Shown: positions 15,558 to 43,509 of the stretch, one piece after another
How positions within the stretch are numbered: position 1 is the first letter of the stretch
How the letters are laid out: each line of letters begins with the position of its first letter
NCBI GenBank assembly: GCA_029881725.1
Contig: JAOUMB010000007.1
Span: forward strand, 1-64,000
DNA length: 64,000 nucleotides
Reading direction: 5' to 3'
Origin: Nitrospirota bacterium
GTDB lineage: Bacteria; Nitrospirota; JACRHL01
Made by a program: the position numbers and the translations under genes
The notes under the pieces: model-generated
Told to the model about the DNA's origin: nothing
The model's input: the letters and a program-made list of their open reading frames with translations, nothing else
The model's database searches: none

Positions 15558-15648
<91 letters not shown>

Positions 15649-15704: not shown

Positions 15705-15793
15705 TGGCGGAGAGGGAGGGATTCGAACCCCCGGTGAGTTTCCCCACACCTGATTTCGAGTCAGGCACCTTCGACCAGCTCGGACACCTCTCC
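15705..15793 (-). tRNA. tRNA-Ser (anticodon CGA), CCA encoded
   Basis: GGAGAGGTGTCCGAGCTGG...CCTGACTCGAAATCAGG...GGTTCGAATCCCTCCCTCTCCGCCA. Confidence 0.96.
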
Positions 15794-16301: not shown

Positions 16302-16337
16302 GGGGCCATTATACGGCGTGGCACAGTCCGAAAATCG

Positions 16338-16365
16338 AAAAGGCCCGGGTTGCCCCGGGCCTTTT
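16338..16365 (-). terminator. Rho-independent terminator downstream of the cytochrome-porin gene
   Basis: aaaaggcccggg ttgc cccgggcctttt. Confidence 0.85.
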
Positions 16366-16391
16366 GACTGTGGATCCGGATGTTCCGGGTG

Positions 16392-17600
16392 TTACAGGCC
16401 GATCTGGAAACCGACGGTGAGGATGGTATCGTCACCCGCGGCGCCGCCGATCGAGTCCGGGTGCCCTTCGCCGTAATCCGCCATCACGTACTCGGCGGTG
16501 AGGTTCACGTTTGGCATTACATAGAACGACGCGGTGAGCACCGTTTCGGTGTCGGTTCCCGGCACCGCCATGCCCGCCGTTTCCGATTCCTTGGATTCGT
16601 ACCGGCCGGTGACCAGCACCCTGGGGGTGACCGGGTAGACGATCTCCGCCAGCAGGTTCTCCTGGGTGTTGCCGGTGGCGCCGCTCACGTTGTCCTGGGA
16701 GAACCAACCCAGCACCATCCAGGTGGGACCCAGACGCAGATTGGCATTCAAGTCCAGCATGGAGTAAGTATCCGTGGCCCCGGTGGCGCCGTCACCCGCA
16801 CGGGCGGTGGTGTAGCGGGCACCGATGGTCTGTCCGGCGATGTCGTAGGCGGCCCATGCATAGGCGCCGCCCAGCACGGCTTCGGCGTTTTCCTCAAAAT
16901 TGTTGCCGTAGCCGGTGGCGTAGCGCAGACCGGAACCCTCGCCCAGCTTCAGGTGGCCATTCAACTCCAGGCCGGAGTTGTCCTGCGACACCGGCGCCAG
17001 ATAACCGTGCTGGGTGGTCCGGCGCGGCTGGGACAGGTAGAAGAATTCGTTGCTCATCACACCCACGCGGGCGTTCAGCAGATTGTCCGGAAGGATGTCG
17101 CTGAACACCAGGAAGGTGCCGCCGGCACCGGCCTGGGCCACAGTGGTGGTGCCCAGTGGAGTTCCTCCGTTAAACACCTCTACTTCGTCGATGCTGAAGG
17201 CATAGTCGAAGAAGTAGGAGATGTTCGGCCCCAGATGTCCGCCGGAGAAGAATTCCAGGCTGCGGCGGTCGGCGTCGGTAATGGCGGTGACGCCTTCCGC
17301 CGGGATGTCGGTTTCGCGGCTTTCGAAGGTCAACTTGGTCATGGCGGCCAGCGGCAGGTTGTCGTTCAGCCACACCGGCTTGCCTTTCTGGCCCTGCATG
17401 CGGTAGCCGTTCTGCTTGAACGCCATGCCGAACTCATTGAGTTTTGGAAACTGCACATGGCAGGTGGTGCACGGCACCTTGTTGGCGCGGGCGAAGGCCG
17501 GAATGGCCTCGGCGGGGGTCGGCGCCAGCATCTGGATCATTCCCAGCCCGAACAGGGCCAGCGCGCCGAGCGCAAAAGTCTTGGATTTCATGGTTCCCAC
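16392..17600 (-). CDS. Outer-membrane monoheme cytochrome-porin fusion, Cyc2-like candidate (start may be 17591)
   Basis: Signal peptide ending ...PTPAEA, then IPAFARANKVPCTTCHVQFPKLNEFGMAFKQNGYRM (one CxxCH close to the mature N-terminus), then alternating beta-strand-like porin sequence to the C-terminus. Confidence 0.72.
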   Translation of the reverse strand: MGTMKSKTFALGALALFGLGMIQMLAPTPAEAIPAFARANKVPCTTCHVQFPKLNEFGMAFKQNGYRMQGQKGKPVWLNDNLPLAAMTKLTFESRETDIPAEGVTAITDADRRSLEFFSGGHLGPNISYFFDYAFSIDEVEVFNGGTPLGTTTVAQAGAGGTFLVFSDILPDNLLNARVGVMSNEFFYLSQPRRTTQHGYLAPVSQDNSGLELNGHLKLGEGSGLRYATGYGNNFEENAEAVLGGAYAWAAYDIAGQTIGARYTTARAGDGATGATDTYSMLDLNANLRLGPTWMVLGWFSQDNVSGATGNTQENLLAEIVYPVTPRVLVTGRYESKESETAGMAVPGTDTETVLTASFYVMPNVNLTAEYVMADYGEGHPDSIGGAAGDDTILTVGFQIGL

Positions 17601-17839
17601 TCCGTCCTGAATATGGATGCCGCCCGGCCCCCCTTCCCAAAGGAACCGCCCGGCACGGTACTTTTCTCCTTCCTGTCGGACGCGGGTTGTCCCGGTGTGA
17701 AGAAATAATTTTGTGTAACTGATTGAAAATCGTCATAAATTGACCTTTTTCAATGCAATTAATGGTCTGGCGTGGACCGGCCCCGGCAGGTATGCTGAAC
17801 CGCGCGGTCGGGTGCGCGAGCGATTCACCGGGAGAATGC

Positions 17840-41683: not shown

Positions 41684-42502
41684 TTACCCGCTTTTCACGC
41701 AGCGGAAGCCCACGTCGTTGAGCCGCCCCTGGGGGGCCAGGAACAGGCGGAACGAGGCGCGGGAGTTGTTGGCCACCACATCCAGAAAGGCGGCCCGGTC
41801 GGGAAAGTGGCCGGGATTGGCCCAGGAGTTGCCGCGCAGCACCCGGTATTTTTCGCCGAATTTCTCATCTTTGAAGGGATTGCCCGGATACGGCTTGTAC
41901 CAGTCGGCGGTCCACTCCCACACGTTTCCGGCCAGGTCCTGAATGCCGTAGGGGCTGTCGCCACGCGGAAAACTGCCCACCGGCACGGTACCGTTGCGGG
42001 CCACGTTGGCGGCGTCCGGGTCGAAGTCGTTGCCCCAGGGATAGATGAGCCCGGAGGAGCCGCGGGCGGCCTTTTCCCATTCGGTTTCGGTGGGCAGCCG
42101 CTTTTTGCCGTCCCAGACGCAGAAATCCCGCGCCTCGAACCAGGTCACGTGGGTCACCGGGTGGGTCGCCAGATCGGCGGAGGGGGCGTTGCCCTTCCAG
42201 TGGGGTGGCGCCCGGTGGCCGGTGGCGGCCACGAATTCCGCGAAGCGTGCGTTGGTCACCTCGGTGCGGTCCATGTAGAAGCGCGGCAGCATCACCGAGC
42301 GCTCCGGCCGCTCCGCGTCGAACCAGGTGATCATCAGCCCCAGTTCCTCGGCGCGGCCTTCCGTGTCCACCACGTCGGTGCCCATCACGAACGGGCCGCC
42401 GGGTACCTCCACCATGCCGGCGGGCGGCTTTTTGCAGCCGGTGGCGGTCAGCAGGCACAGCACCAGGGTGAGGGGGAGCATGCCCTTAATGGCAGGGTTC
42501 AT
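41684..42502 (-). CDS. FGE-sulfatase domain lipoprotein 1 (lacks the CxxxxC pair)
   Basis: LLTATGC lipobox; [44 protein letters not shown]. Confidence 0.9.
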   Translation of the reverse strand: MNPAIKGMLPLTLVLCLLTATGCKKPPAGMVEVPGGPFVMGTDVVDTEGRAEELGLMITWFDAERPERSVMLPRFYMDRTEVTNARFAEFVAATGHRAPPHWKGNAPSADLATHPVTHVTWFEARDFCVWDGKKRLPTETEWEKAARGSSGLIYPWGNDFDPDAANVARNGTVPVGSFPRGDSPYGIQDLAGNVWEWTADWYKPYPGNPFKDEKFGEKYRVLRGNSWANPGHFPDRAAFLDVVANNSRASFRLFLAPQGRLNDVGFRCVKSG

Positions 42503-43509
42503 GGGCGGGCCTCCGGTGTTTCTGGGTTGGATGCGGCGGGGGCGTCGGCGGCGCAGCGGAAGCCGAAGGAACTGTTTTTGATTTTCGGGGTAAAGCGGCT
42601 GCGGTTGAAGCTGGGCGCGGACAGGCCGCAGCCGTAGCTCAGGCAGTCGTACCAGGAGCCGCCGCGCAGCACGCGGTTTTTTTCGCCGTAAAAATTGTTG
42701 GGGAACTCGTTGCCCGGATACGGCTGATACCAGCTGTCGGTCCACTCCCACACATTGCCGGACATGTCGAACAGGCCGTAGGGGCTTTTGCCGGAAGGGA
42801 ACGACCCCACCGGCATGGTGTGGCCCGGATCGTTCATCGAGGCCCACCGCTGGGGGGTGTTGGCGCGTTCGAGTTCAAAGTGGTTGCCCCACGGGAACAC
42901 GTTGCCGTCGGGGCCGCGCGCGGCCTTTTCCCATTCCAGCTCGTTGGGCAGGCGCTTGCCTTCCCAGCGGCAGAAGTCGTCCGCGTCGAACCAGCTGACG
43001 AACACCACCGGGTGCTCCTCCCGCCCCTCGGGGATCATGCCGTTCTTCCAGTGGCGGGGCGGGTTCACGGTTCCGCCGGAAGCGGTCACGTAGCGGCTGT
43101 AGCGGCGGTTGGTGACCTCGTACAGATCGATGTAGTAGGCGGGCAGTTCCACCACGTGTTCCGGGGTTTCGTCCAGGTTGCCCTCCCCCTCGGTGATCTC
43201 GCGCCCGTCGTTGCCGATGATGGCGGGGCCGGCGGGAATCCGCGCCATGTTGGACAGGTCGGGGCCGTGCACCGGGCCGGGGCGGGCGGGGCCGGCGTCC
43301 GCCGCGCGGGACAGGGGCGCCTCGTGGCTGCCCCCGTGGCATTCGGCGCACTCCCCCTGGGCCGGACGGACCGGGGTGGCGGCCCCGTCCGGGCCGTGGC
43401 AGGCGCCGCACGCCTCGGTGGACACCTCGGTGAACGGGGTGCCCGGCGGCAGCGCGGCGGCGGGGGCGGCCCACAACAGGGCGGCCATCAGGACGGCGAT
43501 GCGGCTCAT
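42499..43509 (-). CDS. Periplasmic di-CxxCH cytochrome region fused to an FGE-sulfatase domain (protein 2, keeps CxxxxC)
   Basis: Signal [24 protein letters not shown] and [70 protein letters not shown]. Confidence 0.9.
   Translation of the reverse strand: MSRIAVLMAALLWAAPAAALPPGTPFTEVSTEACGACHGPDGAATPVRPAQGECAECHGGSHEAPLSRAADAGPARPGPVHGPDLSNMARIPAGPAIIGNDGREITEGEGNLDETPEHVVELPAYYIDLYEVTNRRYSRYVTASGGTVNPPRHWKNGMIPEGREEHPVVFVSWFDADDFCRWEGKRLPNELEWEKAARGPDGNVFPWGNHFELERANTPQRWASMNDPGHTMPVGSFPSGKSPYGLFDMSGNVWEWTDSWYQPYPGNEFPNNFYGEKNRVLRGGSWYDCLSYGCGLSAPSFNRSRFTPKIKNSSFGFRCAADAPAASNPETPEARP

Follow-up and report, generated by a model that had tools for sequence, protein, structure and literature searches.

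The closest described systems to the gene reported here are the fused monoheme cytochrome-porins of the Cyc2 type. Cyc2 function in Cluster 1 has been validated in Mariprofundus ferrooxydans PV-1 (PMC8406198). Keffer et al. 2021 describe a Cyc2 signature composed of AXPXFAR[Q/K][T/Y], CXXCH and PXL, set a minimum length of 365 aa for a fused monoheme cytochrome-porin, and treat the role of proteins beyond Cluster 1 as uncertain, particularly for Cluster 3 (PMC8406198). Cyc2-like genes serve as iron-oxidation markers in metagenomes. Here, we analysed a gene of this type in a 64,000-nucleotide stretch of DNA, hereafter the window, that belongs to a Nitrospirota genome of 2.96 Mb (126 contigs, 98% complete). 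A sequence-only reading of the window had proposed a Cyc2-like protein and a possible marker of Fe(II) oxidation.

The open reading frame given by that reading, 16392-17600, was recovered with a different start. Position 17600 is a GTG located three codons upstream of an ATG at 17591, which is the likely start; the GTG would add three residues. The gene had also been described as monocistronic, with its own strong terminator, and both points were borne out: the hairpin at its end folds with -26.8 kcal/mol (z -6.9), tadA comes after this terminator, and a divergent fatty-acid-hydroxylase-like gene is found upstream. Two tRNA-Ser genes with anticodons GGA and CGA (window 15558-15648 and 15705-15793, minus strand) lie between dnaX and tadA, and the ORFs called over them are spurious. 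An antisense ORF of 442 aa (16380-17708, plus strand) overlaps the heme-porin gene. The idea that the heme-porin gene is an artefact of this ORF was rejected, the conservation being on the minus strand; the antisense ORF is a GC-rich shadow.

Table 1 Features of the heme-porin gene, in window coordinates
Feature	Coordinates	Strand	Details
Fused monoheme cytochrome-porin gene	16392..17591	(-)	399 aa, ATG start 17591, TAA stop
Intrinsic terminator hairpin with U-rich tail	16333..16369	(-)	Palindromic, usable from either strand
Signal-peptide-like N-terminus, residues 1-29 (MKSK...APTPAEA)	17505..17591	(-)	By eye from sequence
AIPAFAR, residues 29-35	17487..17507	(-)	First part of the Cyc2 signature AXPXFAR[QK][TY]; AN follows, not [QK][TY]
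Single heme c site CTTCH, residues 41-45	17457..17471	(-)	Read from sequence
Conserved VQFPKLNEFGMAFKQNGYR segment after the heme site, residues 46-64	17400..17456	(-)	Subfamily alignment
Predicted beta-barrel, residues 82-399	16395..17348	(-)	Low-confidence AF2 model, ~15 strands

The genomes sampled include three others of the same family, the next nearest being related at phylum level only. Two of these three encode an orthologue that aligns with the heme porin from end to end, the identities being 72% and 51-56%. Because both orthologues keep PAFARANKVPCTTCHVQFPKLN exactly, together with this full-length identity, sequence conservation confirms the gene as genuine and not a chance reading frame. 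The 72% orthologue is flanked as in the window, with dnaX/ybaB and tadA downstream and the fatty-acid-hydroxylase-like gene upstream. No second copy was found in the window genome. Pfam, NCBIfam and PDB sequence searches with the heme porin returned no convincing match, and a plasmid search gave distant matches only, confined to the heme region and the first strands.

The N-terminus, MKSKTFALGALALFGLGMIQMLAPTPAEA, is signal-peptide-like when judged by eye, as the sequence-only reading had stated, and the sequence quoted in that reading, HVQFPKLNEFGMAFKQNGY, is present in the protein. The APTPAEA that ends the signal-like stretch is followed by IPAFARANKVPCTTCHVQFPKLNEFGMAFKQNGYRMQG and then by ~320 residues predicted mostly as beta strand, which agrees with the long barrel-like remainder proposed earlier. 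CTTCH is the only CxxCH in the protein. This single site had been placed about 14 residues into the mature protein; with a putative cleavage behind AEA, C41 is residue 12. Compared with the published signature, the heme porin, at 399 aa, is longer than the 365-aa minimum, carries one N-terminal CxxCH behind a signal-peptide-like stretch (by eye), and has a PXL downstream of the heme site. This motif, PKL, is located three residues after CxxCH, as compared to four in the Cluster 1 rows. The AXPXFAR[Q/K][T/Y] element is incomplete, since AN occupies the [Q/K][T/Y] position in the window protein and in both same-family orthologues. Across the window protein's subclade this position is variable (KY, EH, LH). 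As regards a distal heme ligand, the subfamily has no invariant His, Met or Lys apart from the His of CxxCH and the initiator Met.

In pairwise comparison, similarity of the window protein to Cluster 1 Cyc2 is detectable in about the first 150 residues only, and its closest counterparts in other Nitrospirota align along most of the protein at 30-37% identity. When the profile of its own subfamily was aligned with that of Cluster 1 (hhalign), the match reached 99.5% probability (E 3e-22) over 342 columns, which indicates that the barrels of the subfamily and of Cluster 1 are also homologous. At the level of sequence profiles, the homology between the window protein and Cyc2 thus spans almost the entire sequence, and the label of fused monoheme cytochrome-porin is therefore right. 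The Cyc2-like architecture put forward in the sequence-only reading holds, with the full-length profile match, the single heme site, the PxL motif and a porin-like fold match.

The structural part of this architecture was approached by modelling. An AF2 prediction using an alignment of Cluster 1 Cyc2, only ~20% identical to the protein, gave a model with a mean pLDDT of 51, a pTM of 0.51 and ~15 strands. Residues 270-306 have no resolved strands in this low-confidence model, and the strand total would be ~16 if a hairpin formed there. Foldseek with this rough model retrieved general bacterial porins as best matches (E 3e-9 to 1e-6, TM about 0.45), and single-sequence prediction of the heme porin gave no usable model. 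From the modelling, a closed barrel is likely.

To place the protein relative to Cyc2, Cluster 1 references were taken from a species-genome scan (Gallionella, Sideroxydans, Sideroxyarcus and several Nitrospirae), and a gammaproteobacterial rus-operon reference (L135) was found via rusticyanin, with genes for COX1, CtaA and SCO1 close by. The IQ-TREE phylogeny comprised 75 proteins, including Gallionellaceae and leaving out Zetaproteobacteria (M. ferrooxydans PV-1) and Leptospirillum Cyt572. In this tree, the 28 Cluster-1-like rows form one clade with a support of 100/100, and the rus-operon protein groups with plasmid-borne homologues from Ralstonia, Caballeronia, Ideonella and Methylocystis, also at 100/100. 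The window protein belongs to a third assemblage, inside a clade of Nitrospirota proteins (100/99), hereafter the starred clade. Placement in Cluster 1 is rejected both by the tree and by the AU test, in which the three own-family proteins were constrained with Cluster 1 (p 8.4e-8). Membership of the rus-operon, Cluster-2-like group also fails: the starred group is separate in the tree, and the joint constraint holding own-family proteins, Cluster 1 and Cluster 2 together was rejected as well. In addition, two genomes (G048 and G068) each encode a protein from the subclade of the window protein (L024, L025) alongside a Cluster 1 Cyc2. In two more (G010 and G041), the protein found alongside a Cluster 1 Cyc2 belongs to the third assemblage but is more distant (L008, L038). 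Because both kinds coexist in single genomes, Cluster 1 Cyc2 and the window protein's kind are paralogues and not alternative names for one gene. The sequence-only reading had taken a position outside all Cyc2 clusters as the outcome that would count against it; the protein falls outside Clusters 1 and 2, in a tree drawn without the Cluster 3 protein Cyt572. Overall, the phylogeny assigns it to a Cyc2-like subfamily that is centred on Nitrospirota and distinct from Clusters 1 and 2.

The genes surrounding the heme porin in its relatives are informative. In three starred-clade Nitrospirota loci (L066, L142 and L146), the order is Rieske, cytochrome b with a fused cytochrome c, cytochrome c, and heme porin. 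A cytochrome c directly precedes the heme porin in four other loci of the clade (L065, L139, L143 and L150), directly follows it in L151, and lies one gene further on in L067. A partial literature search revealed no evident published description of the Rieske-cytochrome b/c-cytochrome c-heme porin order in Nitrospirota. Closer to the window, one same-family genome (G001) has a diheme cytochrome c ~2.4 kb upstream of its heme-porin gene, with an old-yellow-enzyme-like gene in between. The window genome encodes a 47% identical copy of this diheme cytochrome elsewhere, on contig C90, and its heme-porin gene, like that in the genome of the 72% orthologue, has no redox neighbour.

The earlier reading had pointed to other Fe or extracellular electron transfer (EET) genes and a cbb3 oxidase as things to look for in the genome, and these were found in part: the genome encodes multiheme cytochromes of the EET type as well as a cbb3-like oxidase. 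The cytochrome inventory covers only part of the genome, read by regions. The cbb3-like oxidase subunit I scores best with cbb3 models, below their curated cut-offs, and the genome also encodes two cytochrome b genes and cytochrome c assembly proteins. Several multiheme and heme-motif proteins were observed besides. A 1092-aa cytochrome with 36 CxxCH motifs and a lipoprotein-type N-terminus is encoded on contig C59 (L233:3235-6510), with a 68% identical copy in G002. A PCC3-like locus on C108:34174-39000 (L201, L283), with counterparts at G001:C1:27963-32622, G002:C513:4914-10009 and G003:C54:13161-18127, has the order membrane protein, 21-heme cytochrome, second multiheme cytochrome. Its membrane protein carries two WX3HX13H motifs and SGXXG, features that the literature gives for the inner-membrane component of a putative conduit, PCC3 (PMC5566968). 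Both cytochromes occur in 4/4 genomes of the family, and three of these showed the membrane protein as well; the stretches examined contained no porin that would belong to the locus. Arguably, this locus of giant multiheme cytochromes is a better lead than the heme porin. Finally, a secreted-looking protein with two close CxxCH at its N-terminus, followed by an FGE-sulfatase domain, is encoded in the window (42502-43509, minus strand).

From these observations, the heme porin, which belongs to the wider Cyc2-like superfamily, probably conducts electrons across the outer membrane through its single heme, with Fe(II) as one candidate substrate. This reading is based on homology, the single heme site, the porin-like fold match, the subfamily phylogeny and the cytochrome or bc neighbours in relatives; we infer from them the localisation, heme attachment, electron transfer, its direction and the partner. 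The diheme cytochrome c near the heme-porin gene of G001, and the cytochrome c assembly, cbb3-like oxidase and cytochrome b genes of the window genome, also speak for it. Against it count the absence of redox neighbours in the window genome and around the 72% orthologue, the low confidence of the model and the lack of an invariant candidate for the distal heme ligand. The protein would be exported, after which heme would be added by the cytochrome c maturation proteins of the genome. A porin of ~16 strands would then be inserted in the outer membrane, with the short N-terminal heme domain on the periplasmic side or inside the pore. Single electrons would be exchanged between a small soluble redox partner, which would have access to the pore, and a cytochrome c in the periplasm, and would go on to the respiratory chain.

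Among the other explanations, one has the porin working outward or with a donor other than Fe(II). Its single heme could serve Mn(II), reduced sulfur or redox-active organic molecules, or could dump electrons outside, a proposal that we regard as possible but well short of probable. Mn(II) oxidisers and nitrifiers are among the Nitrospirota that have Cyc2-like proteins (PMC9040806), the bc-linked operons of the relatives permit either direction of flow, and multiheme EET-type cytochromes are encoded in the same genome; however, nothing direct points to any particular substrate. A donor or acceptor other than Fe(II) is about as likely as Fe(II) itself, or a little more so. In a functional Cyc2-type Fe(II) oxidase, dissolved Fe2+ would enter the pore and reduce the heme, and a periplasmic cytochrome would carry the electrons to a cbb3-type oxidase. 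The homology and architecture shared with Cyc2 and the cbb3-like oxidase of the genome are consistent with this, as is the fact that a verified iron oxidase, Cyt572, belongs to Cluster 3 of the literature, a broad group where such Nitrospirota homologues may belong (PMC8406198, PMC7029218). On the other hand, neither Cluster 1 nor the rus-operon group includes the protein, its signature is broken at [QK][TY], the window gene has no Fe-oxidation operon neighbours, and the published authors hold function outside Cluster 1 to be uncertain (PMC8406198). We consider Fe(II) oxidation possible but rather unlikely for this protein. A porin whose heme serves a non-respiratory purpose, such as dealing with peroxide or metals or opening and closing the pore by redox state, is improbable. 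In its favour, the gene is monocistronic beside housekeeping genes, a heavy-metal-resistance-like protein and a reductase are encoded downstream of the heme porin in L065, and the two to four heme porins carried by several Nitrospirota genomes suggest varied roles, but the recurrent cytochrome c and bc neighbours of the subfamily point to electron transport.

The heme-porin gene alone is not a marker of Fe(II) oxidation. The earlier proposal of an iron-oxidation marker like the Cyc2 of neutrophilic Fe oxidisers is not supported for a protein outside Cluster 1 and the rus-operon group, with a broken signature and a paralogous relation to Cluster 1 Cyc2. Since the heme porin resembles Cyc2 yet sits on a branch of its own, paralogous to it, an annotation as an iron oxidase would over-call metabolism. 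The recurring Rieske-cytochrome b-cytochrome c-heme porin order in other Nitrospirota offers a concrete, testable pathway for the branch. Tentatively, the subfamily might form a distinct Nitrospirota outer-membrane route, completed from pore to quinone by a bc-type complex and a cytochrome c dedicated to the single-heme porin, in parallel to Cluster 1 Cyc2, with which it coexists in some genomes; the lineage of the window would have kept the porin and would draw its partners from elsewhere in the genome.

Compared with known systems, the heme porin has the same general architecture as Leptospirillum Cyt572 of Cluster 3, a likeness taken by description only (PMC8406198, PMC10654088). With Cluster 1 Cyc2, it shares a signal-peptide-like N-terminus, AxPxFAR, a single CxxCH, PxL, a length of ~400 aa, a predicted porin-like barrel and full-length profile homology. 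It differs by AN where Cluster 1 has Q[T/Q/M/V], by three residues instead of four from CxxCH to PxL, and by its separate clade (AU p 8e-8). Like the rus-operon Cyc2 (Cluster-2-like, Acidithiobacillus type), it is a fused monoheme cytochrome-porin, but it belongs to a clade separate from the L135 reference and its gene has neither rusticyanin nor oxidase neighbours. The Nitrospirota heme porins encoded beside Rieske/cytochrome b and cytochrome c share its starred clade, with 30-32% identity over most of the length; in contrast to theirs, the window gene stands alone, without a bc or cytochrome c neighbour, and its motif reads AN in place of EH or LH.
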